Position numbers and translations under genes: made by a program. Below are positions 42,633 through 50,658 of a stretch of DNA of 64,000 nt, piece by piece; the stretch's first letter is position 1, and every line of letters starts with the position of its first letter. The stretch covers positions 1 through 64,000 of the forward strand of contig NZ_JAHHDX010000015.1 in the NCBI RefSeq assembly GCF_018619335.1, in the 5' to 3' direction. The notes under the pieces were generated by a model. That model searched no databases. It was not told the DNA's origin and worked only from the letters and a program-made list of their open reading frames with translations. Source of the DNA: Alteromonas sp. ALT199 (lineage in GTDB: Bacteria > Pseudomonadota > Gammaproteobacteria > Enterobacterales > Alteromonadaceae).

Positions 42633-44363
42633 TTAGCCTTCTATTAACGCTTTAACATTAGCCAATGTATCAGCTTCATTAGCGGGCTTGTCCCAACGTA
42701 TTCTATGTATACGGGGAAAGCGCAGCGCAACCCCAGATTTGTGCCTTGATGAAGGGTGCACTGCGTCGAAAGCTACTTCAAGTACCAGCTCTTTTTTCAC
42801 TTCCCTTACTGGACCAAACCGTCCTACGGCGTTGCGTCTTACCCAATTATCCAGTTTTTTGAGTTCTTCATCAGTGAACCCGGAATAGGCTTTTCCGATA
42901 GGCAAAAGCTGACTGTCTTCCCAAGCGCCAAACGTATAGTCAGAATAAAAGCTGGAGCGCTTGCCGTGCCCGCGCTGTGCATACATCATTACCGCATCCA
43001 CAACTAGCGGGTCGCGCTTCCATTTAAACCACTGGCCTTTAGGTCTGCCAGGTACATACTTACTATCTAATCGCTTTATCATCAGCCCTTCTACCGCACG
43101 ATTTTGGCATACTTGGGCGTGTAGCTGGCGCAAGGTTTCAGGTGAAGTGGCATTGAGTGTTTCAGAAAGAAATAAACGGCTGTTATTCGTCTTGCTAAAC
43201 CATTCTTTAAGGGCGTGGCGTCGCGCTTTTAGTGTTTTATCAGTTAAATCTTCACCATTAAGCACCAAAGTATCGTAAACGATAAGTCCAGCCGGGGCGG
43301 AAGACTGTAACGTTTTACTCGGTTTCTTTTTATTAAGGCGCTGCTGAAGGGTATTGAAGGTATCTACGTCTGGCTGTGTGGCGGATGAATTCTGTGAAGC
43401 ATCTTTATCACTACTCGAGCATTGACTAGCCACACTTTGGGCAGTCGATTCTCCAGATGAGTGAAAGCCATGTTCTGCGTTATGGATAACCAGCAGTTCT
43501 CCATCTAGCACCATATTGCCGCTTACAGACTCAAGCAGATCAGGAAATGAGTGGCTAATATCATCGCCAGTACGAGAAAAAAGTGCTTTTTCGGGCACAT
43601 CGCCATCGACCCCACTACCGTTCTGAGTCTTATCATCTAGAGAGTTATTTGACTTAACGACAAGTTGCACACGGATACCGTCGTATTTGTTTTCAATTTG
43701 CCAAGTATTCTTGGTAAATGCGTCGATATCGCTATCTTCAATGGGGTGAGAAAGCATTACCGGATGAAAGGTGACGGCATTTTCAATATCAGGCTTGTCG
43801 GCTTTTCCTTCTAGCCAACCAAGCATGTCGACATAAGGCGGGGTAACCGCATGCCAAAGTGTTTCAACTTCTTTGATGTCCTTATTGCCATAGTCGGCCA
43901 ATATTTGTTTTATAGAGCGTGCCGACACGCCTATACGTAACCCCCGCGTGCCCAACTTTAGTAACGCCCAGCGTTGAGCCGGCGTCATTATTGTTAGGTA
44001 ATGGGCTAGCGTCTCAGAAACTTTCTGCTTACTGACCGAAGCGAAAGTTTCTACCACTTCGGTAAGCGTGGGTAGCGAATCTGTTGGCTCACTATAAGGC
44101 CATAAATGAGCCACGGTTTCACTAACCTCACCCACATAGTCATAGCTCATGGCAAAAAGCTCTGGGTCGGTATGTTCGGTAATGAGCTTTTTCACCGTAT
44201 TGCGCTTAAAAAAGTCGAACCGCAATGTACCTGCCATAGCAGCAATTGCCCAGCCTCGGTCGGGGTCTGGCGTATTAGCAATGTAATCGGCTATAAGCTG
44301 TGCTTTGGCTTTATTTCCAGACGTGAAATAAAGCTGCTCAAGTAAGTGACTGAATGCTTCCAC
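42633..44363 (-). CDS. ATP-dependent DNA ligase (repair-associated)
   Basis: ATP-dependent DNA ligase of 576 residues. The N-terminal helical domain (about 1-200) contains TPAQRWALLKLGTRGLRIGV. The adenylation domain begins at IENKYDGIRVQL with the nucleophile Lys near 223. FSRTGDDISHSFPDLL and MVLDGELLV follow, then motif V PKGQWFKWKR near 440. The OB domain has YTFGAW and PSSRHKSGVALRFPRI. Two insertions rich in Ser/Asn/Asp interrupt the adenylation domain (about 236-258 and 294-332). The start is GTG 44363 after AGGAGG, overlapping the exonuclease stop by one base (TAGTG). It belongs to the ligase/exonuclease/Lhr/PdeM repair set. Confidence 0.92.
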   Translation of the reverse strand: MEAFSHLLEQLYFTSGNKAKAQLIADYIANTPDPDRGWAIAAMAGTLRFDFFKRNTVKKLITEHTDPELFAMSYDYVGEVSETVAHLWPYSEPTDSLPTLTEVVETFASVSKQKVSETLAHYLTIMTPAQRWALLKLGTRGLRIGVSARSIKQILADYGNKDIKEVETLWHAVTPPYVDMLGWLEGKADKPDIENAVTFHPVMLSHPIEDSDIDAFTKNTWQIENKYDGIRVQLVVKSNNSLDDKTQNGSGVDGDVPEKALFSRTGDDISHSFPDLLESVSGNMVLDGELLVIHNAEHGFHSSGESTAQSVASQCSSSDKDASQNSSATQPDVDTFNTLQQRLNKKKPSKTLQSSAPAGLIVYDTLVLNGEDLTDKTLKARRHALKEWFSKTNNSRLFLSETLNATSPETLRQLHAQVCQNRAVEGLMIKRLDSKYVPGRPKGQWFKWKRDPLVVDAVMMYAQRGHGKRSSFYSDYTFGAWEDSQLLPIGKAYSGFTDEELKKLDNWVRRNAVGRFGPVREVKKELVLEVAFDAVHPSSRHKSGVALRFPRIHRIRWDKPANEADTLANVKALIEG

Positions 44364-45379
44364 TAATTGCCTCCTTGCTCTTCTTCATCATAACCGACGA
44401 GAGATAGCGCTCTGGCTTTAAACCCCATTTTTTCTGCCTGATACATCAGGGCATCTTCTCTGCCGTGAGTTACCCACACTTCTTTCGGGTTAACTTCTTC
44501 TATGGTTTGCAGCAATTCAGGCCAGTCGCAATGATCAGAGATAATAAGCGGTAGCTCGGCATTCTTTTGTTTTGCGCGAGCGCGAATTTGCATCCAGCCA
44601 GACGCCACAACAGGTCGCACGTTAGGCAAGCTTCGTGACCACCTGTCGGCAAGTGCAGAAGGGGGCGCAATGACTATCTCGCCGGCTAATGTTTTTTTAT
44701 CCGCAACCTCAGATACTGGAATTAACTCACCCAAGTCTATACCTAATTGCTTGTATAGGTCACACAGCTTTAGCTGCGCGCCATGCAGGTAAATTGGCTT
44801 CATGTAGCCTGCTTCTCGTAACGCTAATATAACCCGCTGGCATTTACCTAGCGCATAAGCGCCTACTAGATGGCATCGTTCTGGAAACACCCGTAACGAA
44901 TGAAGAAGTTTTTCAATTTCATGTTCAATAGGCGGGTGCTTAAAGACTGGAAGCCCGAAGGTGGCTTCGGTAATCAAAACATCGCAAGGGACAACTTTAA
45001 AGGGCGGGCATGTAGGGTCTTGTCGGCGCTTATAATCACCGGAAACTACAACGCGGTAGCCTGCATATTCAATGAGAATTTGTGTAGAGCCAAGAATATG
45101 GCCTGCAGGGTAAAACGTGGCTTTTACATCGTTAAAAGTAATACTTTCACCCATAGCTACGGTATTCTGGTGAATCGCCATATCTTCACCGTAGCGGGTT
45201 TGCATAATAGCCAGTGTTTCTGAGCTTGCGTACACACTGTTATGACCTGCCCGTGCATGGTCAGCGTGACCGTGTGTGACAAGGGCGGTGGCGACTTCAT
45301 TCATTGGGTCGATGTAAAACTCACCCGGCTCGCAATAAAGGCCAGTATCGTCAGCTTTTAGCCAAGTTGATGGGTGCAC
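44363..45379 (-). CDS. ligase-associated MBL-fold exonuclease
   Basis: Metallo-beta-lactamase/beta-CASP-type nuclease-like protein of 338 residues, known in databases as the ligase-associated DNA damage response exonuclease. The metal motif HGHADHARAGH (HxHxDH) is near residues 34-44. FYPAGHILGSTQILIEY and VVSGDYKRR carry later ligands, and ISDHCDWPEL and VWVTHGRED lie in the C-terminal part. GTG 45379 has AGGA nine bases upstream. It is translated first and coupled to the ligase. The beta-CASP region is short compared with RNase J. Confidence 0.9.
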   Translation of the reverse strand: MHPSTWLKADDTGLYCEPGEFYIDPMNEVATALVTHGHADHARAGHNSVYASSETLAIMQTRYGEDMAIHQNTVAMGESITFNDVKATFYPAGHILGSTQILIEYAGYRVVVSGDYKRRQDPTCPPFKVVPCDVLITEATFGLPVFKHPPIEHEIEKLLHSLRVFPERCHLVGAYALGKCQRVILALREAGYMKPIYLHGAQLKLCDLYKQLGIDLGELIPVSEVADKKTLAGEIVIAPPSALADRWSRSLPNVRPVVASGWMQIRARAKQKNAELPLIISDHCDWPELLQTIEEVNPKEVWVTHGREDALMYQAEKMGFKARALSLVGYDEEEQGGN

Positions 45380-45444
45380 TACTCACAGTCCTGTTAAATC
45401 AGAGAATGCTTGTTACTACGTATTTAATCCCTTAAAACGACCAC

Positions 45445-45705
45445 TTGAAGTATGCAAGACCAATAACTCAATTTGATGGCGAGTTCTCTGTCGAGTTAGA
45501 TGCAGATTATTGCTTCCGCCCTGATTGGAGTATGGGAGTGACCTACATTCATGAAAGCAATGAAGTAATAGGTTCAGACAACGTGATTGAGCTAGGCACT
45601 CACTATTGGTTCAACCCGCATTCATCTATTGAATTTGGGTTAGGCTATGATACTGACGAAAGCCAATTAGGCTCGGCTACTTTGCTAGGTACTATAAGAT
45701 TCTAG
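45445..45705 (+). pseudogene. C-terminal remnant of an outer-membrane beta-barrel protein
   Basis: An 86-residue open frame (TTG 45445, no ribosome-binding site) with alternating hydrophobic strands: FDGEFSVELDADYCF, WSMGVTYIHE, NVIELGTHYWF, SSIEFGLGYD and LGSATLLGTIRF. It ends in Phe, as outer-membrane barrels do. Just upstream in frame, NDHLKYA continues the protein-like sequence until a stop (TAA), so the 5' part is missing. It reads as the tail of a lost barrel gene. A terminator hairpin still follows. It sits exactly where the repair locus is split. Confidence 0.55.
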
Positions 45706-45728
45706 CTAGTTACGCCAATATGCTGCAG

Positions 45729-45752
45729 GACCAGGTTTTACCTGGTTCTTTT
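45729..45752 (+). terminator. terminator after the barrel remnant
   Basis: ACCAGGT (45730-45736), loop TTT, and ACCTGGT (45740-45746) form a 7-bp stem followed by TCTTTT. It would end transcripts of the remnant and may also slow leftward transcription from the DUF418 gene. Confidence 0.65.
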
Positions 45753-45795
45753 ACTTAAATCGGAATCATATAACCTCGTTTAGTTCAGATGTTAG

Positions 45796-47007
45796 CTACG
45801 AGGTTTTGTTCGCCTCTGTCGCCATTTCTTGCACTGCAACCAAACCGTCATCTTGCTTGCTTTGTTGCTTCTTATAAAAGCTGCGCAGATATAGTCTTCG
45901 CCATACTGCTTCAAATGGCCCTTGATCGAAATGCTTAGTAATAAAATTCGCCAGCAAAATTTGAATTGCTGTGAGCGCAAGGGTAATTAACATCAAATCG
46001 AGCAGCGTCACGGTATAGGCAAACTCGGGATAGTAGGCGGGCATAATCACACGAAATAACACAGCTAAAACAATAGATTGTGTTAGGTAGAGAGTAAACG
46101 CCACCTTGCCGCAGTTAATAAGTGACTGATACCACCAGGCGGTTGTATTTTTCACTTTAATTAACAGATGAGCGTAGGCAAAAGCACAGAAAATAGCGGG
46201 GATACTGGTGAACATGGGAATAACATCTGAGGTTACTTGCTCAAACATTATCTGAGGAATAACAGTAATAACAGATGTTGCTATGGCAATAATGGCCACT
46301 TTCTTAAAGACAGCAGAAGAAAAACCAACGCTAAAGAAACCGCTTCTATAAAGGTAGGCACCAAACATCATAAGCCCCATCGACTGCCACAGCATGGAAA
46401 AAGGTGCTGCAATAACGGTAGCAAGAACAAAAGAAGCTTGAACACCAATTTGGAACAAATAACTACTTTGCCATTCCATAACCTCTTTGGCGTAAGCTTC
46501 GCTAGACCTAAGGGGAAGTGCGCCACCATAGTCGTATGAAAGAGTAAGTGCTATGCCAAAAACAAGTATAATGATGCTTCCCACGACGAGATATTTAACG
46601 CTTTTCGCGCGAAGCTCTTCTTGGTCTAGCGTTAAGTGTTTTAGTACAAAATAGGCGCAAAGACTGTAATAAAGCAGTATGTCGCCGCCAAATATAAACA
46701 CGCCATGTATTAACCCAAATAAAAATAGCCATTTAAGCCGAGATTTAGAAAAGTCTAAAAAGTTGCGCCCACGCTTTTGGCAAGCATCAAATTGAATAGC
46801 CAAACCTGCTCCAAACAGCAGGCAGAATAATGTACGAAATCTACCATCTAAGAAAAGCGCGCTAACTGTCGAGATAATCTCATCGGACAAAAGTGATTCT
46901 TCAAAAAACGCGTAGCCAGTGTAAAAATTTTGATGGTATGCAATGTTTAAAAACAGTATGCCAAGGATTGCTAAGCCTCTAATGGCATCTATCGATTGAA
47001 TTCGCAT
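45796..47007 (-). CDS. DUF418 (YeiB-like) membrane protein
   Basis: Inner-membrane protein of 403 residues in the DUF418/YeiB family, related to acyltransferase-3-type and heparan-alpha-glucosaminide acetyltransferase proteins; the substrate is unknown. The N-terminal signature SIDAIRGLAILGILFLN (about 4-20) and the GRFRTLFCLLFGAGLA motif are typical. About ten hydrophobic segments are visible, and the DUF418 domain proper covers about 220-385 with GKVAFTLYLTQSIV. AAGGA precedes ATG 47007. It is divergent from the Lhr helicase gene and separates the two halves of the repair locus. Confidence 0.85.
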   Translation of the reverse strand: MRIQSIDAIRGLAILGILFLNIAYHQNFYTGYAFFEESLLSDEIISTVSALFLDGRFRTLFCLLFGAGLAIQFDACQKRGRNFLDFSKSRLKWLFLFGLIHGVFIFGGDILLYYSLCAYFVLKHLTLDQEELRAKSVKYLVVGSIIILVFGIALTLSYDYGGALPLRSSEAYAKEVMEWQSSYLFQIGVQASFVLATVIAAPFSMLWQSMGLMMFGAYLYRSGFFSVGFSSAVFKKVAIIAIATSVITVIPQIMFEQVTSDVIPMFTSIPAIFCAFAYAHLLIKVKNTTAWWYQSLINCGKVAFTLYLTQSIVLAVLFRVIMPAYYPEFAYTVTLLDLMLITLALTAIQILLANFITKHFDQGPFEAVWRRLYLRSFYKKQQSKQDDGLVAVQEMATEANKTS

Positions 47008-47266
47008 TTACGTTCCTTGTAGTCACATGTTGTTGTGTAGCGAGTGTAGTGTATTCGTTTTCGTGGTGTCGATGTAAATAATGTATCCAAACATTAATTA
47101 ACGACACATGTCTTAAATTACAGTAGAGGGCCAATGTTTCAAGGAGGTTGAGCTTTCATTGACACTTAGAGATTAATTGAAAATCCCATTAAGAATGGCG
47201 TTGGTATATATAAACTTAACTAAGGATTTGGCGTATAAAGCGAAAAAGGCATAACAGATACTGTAA

Positions 47267-49765
47267 ATGACATTACTACCTCCCGCTTTCGCTAAGTGGT
47301 TTACGCAAAAAGGCTGGCAACTACGTGATTATCAGCACACTATGTTGGTGGAAAAAGATAAACATGACTGTACGTTACTTATAGCGCCAACAGGGGCGGG
47401 TAAAACTCTGTCAGGTTTTCTGCCGAGTTTGGTAGAGCTTAGTGACCTAAACGAGAATAATACGTCGGCTGAAAGCAAGAGTAAGCAGAGTGGGTTTACT
47501 GGTTTGCATACCTTGTACATTTCTCCACTTAAAGCGTTAACCCAAGATATTCATCGCAACCTGTTACAGCCTATCGAGGAAATGGCACTGCCTATCACTG
47601 CGGAAACCCGTACTGGTGATACGCCTTCTCATAAGCGTCAGCGACAGCGTAAAAAGCCGCCTAATATTCTACTTACTACCCCGGAATCCCTCATGCTGAT
47701 GTTAAGTTACGCCGATGCCGATAAGCTTTTCGGCAAGCTAAAACGCGTGATCATCGATGAAACTCACAGTTTAATGGCTAATAAGCGCGGCGACTTTTTA
47801 TCACTCGCCCTAGCACGGTTAAGCGTGCTTTCACCAAGCTGTAAACGCATAGGTTTGTCAGCGACAGTAGCATTTCCCGAGACTTTGGGCGCGTGGCTAG
47901 CGGGCAGTGACAGTGTTGCCAATATCATCAAAGTAAAAGCGGGAGAAAAGCCAAAAGTTGAAATGCTGCACTCTAAAGCGCGCATGCCTTTTGGCGGCTT
48001 TATGGCCCGTTACGCCATTGATGATATCTATGAGGCGATAGAAAATGCGCAGACCACGCTGGTTTTTGTCAATACCCGTGCTCAGTCCGAGCTTCTATTT
48101 CAAATGCTGTGGGAAGCAAACAAGGCTGCGCTCCCGATTGCACTTTATCACGGCAGTTTAAGCAAAGAGCAAAGGCGAAAAACCGAAGCCATGATGGCAA
48201 GTGGTATGCTAAGAGCAATTGTGTGTACTTCTGCGTTAGAACTAGGTATCGACTGGGGCGATGTAGATAAGGTCATTCAAGTAGGTGCGCCTAAAGGGGT
48301 AAGCAGGCTGCTGCAAAGGATAGGGCGAGCGAACCACAGGTTAGATGAGCCTAGCGAAGCGTTACTTGTACCAGCAAACCGTTTTGAAGCGCTAGAATGC
48401 CAAGCGGCCATTACGGCTATTGAAAAAGGTGAACTTGATGGCGAAAGCCCTCAGCCAGGCGCCCTAGATATCATTCCGCAGTTTATCTTGAACTGTTTAT
48501 GTAGCAAAGCTGATAGCCCAGATGCCTTGTATCAAGAGATACTTACCGCTACGCCTTATCAAGGGTTAGACAAAGACGATTTCGACAAGCTGTGGCGCTT
48601 TACGCAAGACGGAGGCAGTGCCCTTAATGCGTATGAACGATATCAGCGTTTAACGCAAAACGACGATGGCACTTTTGCGCCTGCAAATCAGCGAGTTATA
48701 CAAAGACACAGGCAAAACATAGGCACAATCGTTGAGGCAGGGCGTTTAAAGGTAAAGCGCATTAGAAGGGGAAACCAAGGCAAGATCATTGGCGAGGTAG
48801 AAGAGTACTTCGCCCAGCAGTTAACGCCTGGAGATACCTTTTATTTCGGCGGAGAAACACTGCGCTTTGAAGCTATCCGCGACATGCAGCTTCACGCCAA
48901 GTCGGCAAAAGCCAAAGAGCCTAAAATACCAAGCTACGCAGGCGGTCAAATGCCGCTATCTACCTATCTAGCAGAAGGGGTACGGGCTATCTTGGCCAGT
49001 CAAAAAACCTGGAAGGCACTGCCCGCACAGGTACAAGAGTGGCTGAAGCTTCAGCAGGCGTTCTCTCAGCTACCTAGCCCTGAAAAGGTGCTGGTGGAGC
49101 AGTTTCCATTTAGGCAGGCGCATTATACCTTGTACTACACCTTCGACGGACGCAAAGCGAACCAAACCTTAGGTATGTTATTAACACGGCGAATGGAAAA
49201 AATGGGCATTAAGCCTTTAAGCTTCAGCGTGACTGATTATGGTTTATCGGTAGCATCAGTGAACGCCATCACCCAAGGGCAATTACAGCAGCTGTTTCAG
49301 CCGGATATTCTAGGCGACGAGTTAGAAGATTGGATGTTACAAGCGCCAATGCTAAAGCGTTCGTTCAGACAAGTAGCGGTGGTGAGTGGGCTTACTGAAC
49401 AGCGTTATCACGCCAGTCAAAAAACCATGAAGCAAGTAACGTTTTCTACCGACCTTATTTACGATACATTGCGAGAGCACGACCGGGACCATATATTACT
49501 TAAAGTAGCGCGTGCTGATGCTGAGCGTGAACTACTAGACTTACGGCGGCTCGCTAACTTACTGATTCGCTATGTAGATTCAGCAACATTAGTGAACCTT
49601 GAAAAACCCTCTCCCATGGCCATACCTATTGTGCTTGATGTACGCAGTGAGCAAGTAAAAGGCGCTGGGGCACAGGCCATCATCGAGCAGGCTGATTTGT
49701 ATGCGGAAGCTGAAACCATGTTAGATGAAGTTCGCGCACTACTCTCAGGGACTAGCGTTGAATAG
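47267..49765 (+). CDS. ligase-associated Lhr-type DEXH helicase
   Basis: Superfamily 2 helicase of 832 residues, the size and type of Lhr-Core. Known Lhr-Core enzymes are 3'-5' ATP-driven translocases that unwind RNA:DNA hybrids. Motif I IAPTGAGKTLSGFLPSL is near 39-55, motif II IDETHSL near 165, motif III GLSATVAFPE near 199, motif V VCTSALELGIDWGDVD near 320, and motif VI RLLQRIGRANHRLD near 345. The winged-helix and Lhr-specific domains fill the rest. The C-terminal extension of full-length Lhr (about 1500 residues) is absent. It is followed by pdeM 188 bases later. Confidence 0.93.
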   Translation: MTLLPPAFAKWFTQKGWQLRDYQHTMLVEKDKHDCTLLIAPTGAGKTLSGFLPSLVELSDLNENNTSAESKSKQSGFTGLHTLYISPLKALTQDIHRNLLQPIEEMALPITAETRTGDTPSHKRQRQRKKPPNILLTTPESLMLMLSYADADKLFGKLKRVIIDETHSLMANKRGDFLSLALARLSVLSPSCKRIGLSATVAFPETLGAWLAGSDSVANIIKVKAGEKPKVEMLHSKARMPFGGFMARYAIDDIYEAIENAQTTLVFVNTRAQSELLFQMLWEANKAALPIALYHGSLSKEQRRKTEAMMASGMLRAIVCTSALELGIDWGDVDKVIQVGAPKGVSRLLQRIGRANHRLDEPSEALLVPANRFEALECQAAITAIEKGELDGESPQPGALDIIPQFILNCLCSKADSPDALYQEILTATPYQGLDKDDFDKLWRFTQDGGSALNAYERYQRLTQNDDGTFAPANQRVIQRHRQNIGTIVEAGRLKVKRIRRGNQGKIIGEVEEYFAQQLTPGDTFYFGGETLRFEAIRDMQLHAKSAKAKEPKIPSYAGGQMPLSTYLAEGVRAILASQKTWKALPAQVQEWLKLQQAFSQLPSPEKVLVEQFPFRQAHYTLYYTFDGRKANQTLGMLLTRRMEKMGIKPLSFSVTDYGLSVASVNAITQGQLQQLFQPDILGDELEDWMLQAPMLKRSFRQVAVVSGLTEQRYHASQKTMKQVTFSTDLIYDTLREHDRDHILLKVARADAERELLDLRRLANLLIRYVDSATLVNLEKPSPMAIPIVLDVRSEQVKGAGAQAIIEQADLYAEAETMLDEVRALLSGTSVE

Positions 49766-49953
49766 GGTAGGACTAAACAGAATAATTAAACTTCGCTTTC
49801 CCATATTGTCGATGTACCTCACGCCAAATGCTTTACTTAATAAAGATTTGCGGTAAGTCCGTTGAACAGAAAAGCTTAATAGTATTTCGCTAAATAAACG
49901 TGCAGCGTTACTCAGGTACTAAAAACTCACAAACGAAAAATAAAGAGGATAAT

Positions 49954-50658
49954 TTGGCAATAACCGACGCGTGGCTGACTGAAAAAGTCAGTCAGCGGCA
50001 TATCACTATTACGAAATATGCAGACTACCTGTGGTTATTAGACGCACGTGGTGTGGCGTATTTACCCGCATGCGACTGGCTGATTGTCTCTGATCTTCAC
50101 CTAGAAAAAGGCAGCTATTTACGCAGTTATGCGAACCCCTTACCCAGCTTAGATTCCACCGCCACACTCAAACGTCTGGAAAGTATTATCGATGATTACA
50201 AACCTTTGCGAGTAATCAGCTTAGGGGACAGTTTTCACGACAAGCATAGTATGTCTCGTATGACTAATAAGGACCGTCAGCATTTATGTAGGCTTGTTGA
50301 TAACGTCAATGAATGGATGTGGGTAGAAGGCAACCATGACCCAGATTTGCCTGAGGGCATTCCAGGCACGCCATGTTTTGAAGTAGTGCTAGATAATATG
50401 GTATTCAGGCATGAGCCGGAATTAAACGAAAAGCGAGCGCAAGTTATCGGTCACTATCACCCTAAAAAGCGGACCACCATTACACGCCGTCGTTACTCTG
50501 GCAAATGCTTTACTAACAAAGAAAACTTATTTGTCATGCCCGCTTTCGGGCAATTCACCGGCGGGTTAGACATAGACGAAGATGTAATGCTAGCGCTTCT
50601 TCCCAAGCCGACCCGTCAGGTTTTCATGCTCTGTGACGGCATTATCTTCAAGATATAG
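49954..50658 (+). CDS. pdeM: ligase-associated metallophosphoesterase PdeM
   Basis: Calcineurin-like phosphoesterase of 234 residues, the endonuclease/phosphodiesterase member of the ligase-associated repair set. All two-metal motifs are visible: SDLHLEKG (DxH), SLGDSFHD (GDxxHD), VEGNHDPD (GNHD), and GHYHPKK (GHxHP); a His lies in FRHEPE. The longest frame starts at GTG 49900, but GAGG at 49945-49948 is five bases before TTG 49954, which starts the typical MAITDAWL-like N-terminus. Some homologues act on DNA with 2',3'-cyclic or phosphodiester substrates; the natural one is not known. Confidence 0.92.
   Translation: MAITDAWLTEKVSQRHITITKYADYLWLLDARGVAYLPACDWLIVSDLHLEKGSYLRSYANPLPSLDSTATLKRLESIIDDYKPLRVISLGDSFHDKHSMSRMTNKDRQHLCRLVDNVNEWMWVEGNHDPDLPEGIPGTPCFEVVLDNMVFRHEPELNEKRAQVIGHYHPKKRTTITRRRYSGKCFTNKENLFVMPAFGQFTGGLDIDEDVMLALLPKPTRQVFMLCDGIIFKI

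Follow-up and report, generated by a model that had tools for sequence, protein, structure and literature searches.

A DNA repair gene cluster of Pseudomonas putida, encoding Lhr-Core, MPE, an exonuclease and a ligase, was reportedly described by Ejaz and Shuman in 2018 and by Ejaz et al. in 2019. The cluster is dealt with in the accessible parts of three papers (PMC8301817, PMC10140301, PMC7437997); in those of PMC10140301, the biological role of the module and the damage it targets are given as not known. A second point of comparison is the mycobacterial lhr-nei2 operon, a two-gene operon in which the partner is Nei2 and Lhr is a full-length, tetrameric protein with a C-terminal domain; according to the available sections of PMC11323726, loss of this Lhr causes sensitivity to three crosslinkers. 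Here, a stretch of 64,000 nucleotides from Alteromonas sp. ALT199 (contig NZ_JAHHDX010000015.1, positions 1 to 64,000; hereafter the window) was analysed, which encodes the same four families as the P. putida cluster: an ATP-dependent DNA ligase (lig), an MBL/beta-CASP-type exonuclease (exo), the helicase Lhr-Core (lhr) and the MPE-type nuclease PdeM (pdeM). With the mycobacterial operon the window has the Lhr motor domain in common, while it differs in all the other features named. The comparison with P. putida refers to gene families and not to the gene order in that organism; in the window, two divergent pairs are separated by an insert. The locus is best explained as the described Lhr-Core/MPE/MBL-exonuclease/ATP-ligase repair module in the normal alteromonad layout, with an insert in its divergent spacer, a reading to which a probability of roughly 80% is assigned. 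A literature search by titles and abstract openings, with most subscription papers beyond its reach, gave nothing on the gene order of the module in Alteromonas.

Genes were called from a six-frame reading of the region and from curated NCBIfam profiles with the NCBI cut-offs. All four proteins scored above these cut-offs (TIGR04120 to TIGR04123, Table 1), in agreement with the initial annotation of this DNA, which had placed the whole described set at the locus. The four genes look intact. Catalytic motifs, in the definitions we assume for these proteins, were unbroken in all four translations when inspected by eye, those of PdeM after alignment to MPE. The ligase contains KYDGIR, presumably its K-x-D-G motif, and in the exonuclease HGHADHA and further metal-site residues are invariant in an alignment of 20 sequences (H36, H38, D40, H41, H94 and D115 were checked). 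The true start of PdeM is uncertain, with the TIGR04123 match beginning at residue 40. All the genes lie within 8.1 kb, the insert of approximately 1.8 kb between the halves included. The one-base overlap of exonuclease and ligase genes proposed beforehand was recovered: base 44363 is common to the exo stop codon TAG and the ligase start codon GTG (string TAGTG). The divergent arrangement of the window is not the single-strand exo-lig-lhr-pdeM operon form.

The initial annotation regarded the locus as one set split by unrelated genes and proposed a search for an ancestral contiguous order across alteromonads. This comparison was carried out with 59 genomes of the genus Alteromonas and 157 genomes of the family (52 genera); the two samples overlap, and genomes of the same genus are non-independent observations. 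In profile searches, all four families were found in the same 55 of the 59 genus genomes and none of them in the other four (G449, G479, G483 and G495, with a completeness of 87% in one and a contamination of 7% in another), and therefore the four are not a chance grouping. exo and lhr are divergent in all 55. Within the family, exo was detected in 20 of 157 genomes, from 6 of 52 genera. Exactly these genomes have lhr as well, divergent in every case, and lig always comes after exo. Since divergence is found in 55/55 genus and 20/20 family genomes, it represents the inherited layout. The same arrangement was seen in a named set of 80 loci picked by similarity to the alteromonad exonuclease, which has genomes in common with the genus and family sets: lhr is in view in 42 of them and divergent in all 42. 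Foreign genes do part the two halves in the window, as first supposed, but the idea that the divergence itself marks the break of an older contiguous order in this lineage is not supported; a split order universal among relatives, one of two observations named in advance as contradicting the idea, is what the sampled relatives display.

The distances between the genes differ in constancy. exo and lig form a close pair, mostly with overlapping stop and start codons: in all 55 genus genomes with the module their profile matches are separated by 17–50 bp, and among 47 alteromonad-type loci (a few of them named to other groups and some genomes included twice) the genes overlap in 36, are 0–30 bp apart in 7 and farther apart in 4. 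lhr and pdeM are more loosely arranged: of the 55 genus genomes, 51 have them no more than 700 bp apart, three have them 3.4–9.5 kb apart and one has them on separate contigs. For 19 of the 20 family genomes, the fetched stretch shows pdeM after lhr. In the exception, G149, pdeM (G149:C1:3896108-3896770) is located approximately 9.5 kb from lhr and is still kept, which suggests that PdeM need not adjoin lhr. The alteromonad divergent spacer commonly measures about 140–360 bp between profile matches; 28 of the 55 genus genomes have an exo-lhr gap of no more than about 400 bp and 27 a longer one, and in the family the profile-match distance is up to about 360 bp in 11 genomes and longer in 9. 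In G487 (C1:267863-269905), a 717-residue frame matches the Lhr profile (804 positions) only from position 112 onwards. This points to a possible loss or frameshift of the N-terminal part of the helicase; the other three genes match over their full length.

Beyond the family, 299 genomes of the phylum were searched, and all counts apply at the E-value limits used. exo was found in 81 genomes and lhr in 87 (both in 79, exo alone in 2, lhr alone in 8). For the 76 exo loci that were left when five already available were set aside, up to about 9.5 kb per side was read, some stretches ending early at contig ends; lhr is divergent in 20, co-directional in 14 and out of view in 42. As lhr is encoded elsewhere in the genome for 40 of these 42, physical separation is common. 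The 17 gammaproteobacterial loci outside the family comprise 13 co-directional ones and 4 without lhr in view, while the 59 loci of other classes comprise 20 divergent, 1 co-directional (L201) and 38 without lhr in view. A co-directional exo-lig-lhr-pdeM order thus exists, in 13 of 13 gammaproteobacterial loci outside the family with lhr in view and in L201, and could be taken as the ancestral operon that was split and inverted in the Alteromonas lineage. This is very unlikely: exo and lhr are divergent in every genus and family genome with both genes and, of the 21 linked loci of other classes, in 20; the co-directional gammaproteobacterial loci fall in a distant sequence clade of their own. 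A split-and-inverted operon is hence not borne out for alteromonads, all sampled members being divergent. Exonuclease identity to the window is 35–40% in the 17 sampled gammaproteobacteria and 50–60% in the loci of other classes, except for seven of the family f48 (35–37%), in all of which lhr is out of view. In alphaproteobacteria, among them Asticcacaulis, Azospirillum and Inquilinus, the genes are divergent where lhr is in view, and exonuclease identity to the window is 57–61% for these genera. In Asticcacaulis pdeM is located behind lhr as in the window, whereas in many alphaproteobacterial loci lhr and pdeM do not occur within 10 kb of exo. Three non-alteromonad loci of the named set labelled Gammaproteobacteria (L089, L092 and L095) are divergent as well, and the divergent form is therefore not limited to alteromonads within this class.

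Every third locus of the named alphaproteobacterial set and every second sample locus of other classes went into the exonuclease tree (90 rows), with only L199 from the seven f48 loci. In this tree, 19 alteromonad sequences group with alphaproteobacterial ones and with seven other gammaproteobacteria picked by similarity, and the 17 sampled gammaproteobacteria are set off from this grouping by fully supported branches; L199 lands among the latter. Deep branches near the alteromonads have moderate support (80–94), and several alteromonad rows are odd in composition. A single clade of all gammaproteobacteria was rejected for the exonuclease (approximately unbiased test, p-AU 1.5e-66), also after removal of the seven similarity-picked sequences (p-AU 1.05e-8). 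In the ligase tree, the sampled gammaproteobacteria stand together with a support of 75 and a long-branch warning. In both sequence and layout the alteromonad cluster is similar to alphaproteobacterial ones, while the sampled gammaproteobacteria outside the family have a distant version, co-directional where linked; this suggests horizontal acquisition, and alphaproteobacteria are the probable source or co-owners of the cluster. The trees are unrooted, so any direction of transfer is an inference. It is an even bet that the whole module moved from an alphaproteobacterial lineage into some alteromonads as back-to-back pairs, whose own promoters made the seam a recurrent landing site for unrelated genes, with the module still present whole or not at all, and which hence work in trans with no fixed spacing. 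The alpha-type clade may have undergone an inversion earlier, close to its root.

Orthologous modules are present in A. portus, Alteromonas sp. KUL106 and Alteromonas sp. IB21. In IB21, the exonuclease of which is 95% identical to that of the window, the exo-lhr spacer measures 160 bp and holds no insert. It aligns with the window on both flanks, in a block on the exo side (local score 27, at most 14 in 300 plain shuffles) and in one on the lhr side (score 24, shuffles at most 16), and the extra DNA of the window is therefore placed at about 45447-47210 (Table 1). The retention of blocks on both sides of the insert suggests that the two halves may be regulated independently, which is the other observation named in advance as contradicting a split set.

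Table 1. Features of the repair locus in the window (nucleotide positions, strand and basis of assignment)
Feature	Position	Strand	Basis and remarks
ATP-dependent DNA ligase (LigB type by name)	42633-44363	-	TIGR04120 681 bits, cut-off 400; 576 aa, GTG start
MBL/beta-CASP-type exonuclease (exo)	44363-45379	-	TIGR04122 477 bits, cut-off 325; 338 aa
Conserved block 5' of exo, possibly part of the exo-lig promoter region	45410-45446	-	matches IB21
Inserted segment, ~1.76 kb	45447-47210		missing from IB21; ends approximate, alignment-based
Remnant of a porin-like outer-membrane barrel gene, last 79 codons	45466-45705	+	open frame 45436-45705
DUF418 membrane protein, YeiB-like, 403 aa	45796-47007	-	PF04235 88 bits
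Conserved block 5' of lhr, possibly part of the lhr-pdeM promoter region	47211-47256	+	matches IB21
Lhr-Core DEXH helicase	47267-49765	+	TIGR04121 1033 bits, cut-off 850; 832 aa
PdeM / MPE metallophosphoesterase nuclease	49900-50658	+	TIGR04123 205 bits, cut-off 150; 252 aa from GTG

The insert consists of the DUF418 gene and barrel remnant that the initial annotation had recognized between two divergent halves. The 79 codons of the remnant are nearly identical to residues 193–271 of a 271-aa protein of KUL106. The remnant itself has no Pfam match, while its intact homologue in G458 matches Porin_7 (35.8 bits, cut-off 26.6). Among the spacers read, an intact 271-residue barrel is encoded between the repair genes in four genomes (G448, G458, G468 and G484), and the piece in A. 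portus (39 codons) is shorter than that of the window; from these intact copies and shorter pieces it follows that the barrel gene is decaying in this Alteromonas subgroup. The fuller insert, in G448 and G458, consists of DUF418, a third gene (approximately 312 residues) and the intact barrel, while that of G024 and G466 holds DUF418 and the third gene and that of G468 and G484 DUF418 and the barrel. Two versions of DUF418 are found, 94–95% identical to the window's protein in three genomes and 70–72% in eight, of which G477 and G496 carry it on a different contig from exo; two distant homologues (43–47%) are both encoded on other contigs. The A. portus protein is 95% identical to that of the window. 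KUL106, with an intact barrel and a DUF418 protein 71% identical, differs from the window, as does IB21. Same-place copies in G024 (L053) and KUL106 (L065) share 70–71% with the DUF418 protein of the window, compared to 92–96% for the exonuclease and about 90% for Lhr, which suggests a swap for a diverged version or fast divergence at the shared position.

DUF418, and formerly the barrel, might be a functional partner kept between the halves and read through into exo-lig. DUF418 is located in the exo-lhr spacer of 10 of the 59 genus genomes, the window's included, in the same direction as exo-lig, and a sigma-70-like site lies upstream of its gene. However, in 45 of the 55 module-bearing genus genomes DUF418 is absent from the spacer (4 of these 45 have a homologue on another contig), the barrel is decaying in the window, and the promoter scan gave 8 promoter-like sites compared to a shuffle mean of 15.6. 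Terminator-like sites numbered 10, with 10.5 expected. Moreover, unrelated genes occupy the spacer in other genomes. The other genus spacers longer than 400 bp hold a protein of about 110 residues without Pfam match in ten genomes (judged a lipoprotein by eye), a phosphoesterase and a lipase in four, a glycosyltransferase in two and a pilin-like protein in one; another carries genes that, from their translation only, were named molybdopterin-dehydrogenase-like. The spacers of other family genera hold GNAT, TIR and sugar-utilisation genes and include one stretch of approximately 21 kb. One fetched spacer includes a run of N. A functional partnership is very unlikely as well; DUF418 has no evident tie to the repair set, and the spacer looks like a permissive seam rather than the site of a specific partnership.

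Several observations would fit a module serving anti-phage defence rather than housekeeping repair. In PADLOC, Lhr scores 254 bits with the model SngC and also hits many further models of defence helicases (58 families). The module has a patchy distribution in the family, in 6 of 52 genera, and a TIR protein is encoded in the spacer of one genome. Nevertheless, this is the least likely of the explanations considered: Lhr reaches 1033 bits with the dedicated repair model TIGR04121, and PADLOC gave no match for the ligase, the exonuclease, PdeM or DUF418. Unlike a mobile defence island, the module is near-universal in the genus (55/59), and aguB is found beside it in the fetched stretch of 17 of 19 family relatives. 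The Shango defence system, of which we take SngC to be the helicase, was rejected as an assignment on the same scores. One scan of viral contigs, in which only close relatives are detectable, gave no relative of the exonuclease. The TIR protein of G053 (L052:4803-6398) is a lone 531-residue TIR_2-domain protein in the divergent spacer with weak PADLOC matches. Defence genes as the rule for the inserts were rejected, with this single TIR protein among many unrelated inserts and one insert protein run against PADLOC.

For the preferred reading, a repair module in the usual layout of its lineage, the following course is proposed. In an ancestor of this Alteromonas subgroup, the DUF418 gene, the third gene and the porin-like gene would have come between the two pairs, and the insert would later have been trimmed to DUF418 and the porin tail in the window; the present states are observed, the order of events is our reconstruction. 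Each half kept its own upstream block, and both are therefore predicted to be expressed still. Judged from the four families, Lhr-Core would move 3'-to-5' and open the DNA where it is blocked or crosslinked, PdeM/MPE would cut the exposed single strand, the MBL exonuclease would trim the end and the ligase would seal it after resynthesis. Since loss of the mycobacterial Lhr sensitises cells to crosslinkers, crosslink repair is the leading guess for the module by analogy. The analysis corrects the view of the locus as a broken operon. About half of the sampled genus has extra DNA in the same spacer, yet none of the sampled genus genomes was found with only some of the four genes; this all-or-none pattern supports the view that the enzymes form a single functional unit, with exo-lig as its tightest pair. 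The four genus genomes in which none of the genes was found could be used as natural controls in lesion tests.

LexA-type boxes beyond chance, as judged with plain shuffles, were found neither in the window nor as a rule upstream of either half in relatives. The patterns, including an alpha-type one, are those we take to be LexA boxes, and some genomes are represented twice among the scanned loci. Upstream of exo (174 loci), CTGT-N8-ACAG was found 0 times (0.8 expected), CTG-N10-CAG 8 times (12.8) and GTTC-N7-GTTC 5 times (1.4); upstream of lhr (92 loci), the corresponding values are 1 (0.3), 8 (5.7) and 1 (0.4). The alpha-type pattern is slightly in excess upstream of exo, but its positions are scattered and the window is not among the carriers, so this was rejected as a sign of regulation. 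Damage induction is therefore not supported, and this is the first of several points that weigh against the repair module as reconstructed here. The mycobacterial evidence, from the analogue in M. smegmatis, was obtained with an Lhr that is full-length and tetrameric and has a C-terminal domain missing from this Lhr-Core, and the role proposed for the module in this organism rests on families and sequence. IB21 could have lost the insert instead of never having carried one. In the lhr tree (48 rows), a single gammaproteobacterial clade was rejected more weakly (p-AU 0.0115) and with a long-branch warning; such tests cover exo and lhr. Furthermore, the f48 exonucleases resemble those of the sampled gammaproteobacteria, so that the two sequence clades are not cleanly split by class, and the named set is biased by its selection.

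Among solved structures, PdeM matched at E ≤ 0.001 only those of Nuclease MPE (6nvo and 6nvp), over residues 41–226; both are presumably the P. putida MPE, which agrees with a reference cited in PMC7437997. The best matches of the exonuclease are YSH1/CPSF3-type beta-CASP nucleases; the ligase matches ATP-dependent DNA ligases best and DNA ligase 1 next. For Lhr-Core, the best matches are 5v9x and 7lhl ('ATP-dependent DNA helicase'), which we take to be mycobacterial Lhr. In KUL106, one loop of Lhr (L065:970-3576) has grown into tandem ELAETFGNR-like repeats. The ligase of the window (576 aa, compared to 526 profile positions) contains serine-rich low-complexity stretches in the middle of the protein, and a second protein with an ATP-dependent ligase domain is encoded elsewhere in the same genome (G000:C135:68324-68581, in a 332-residue frame).

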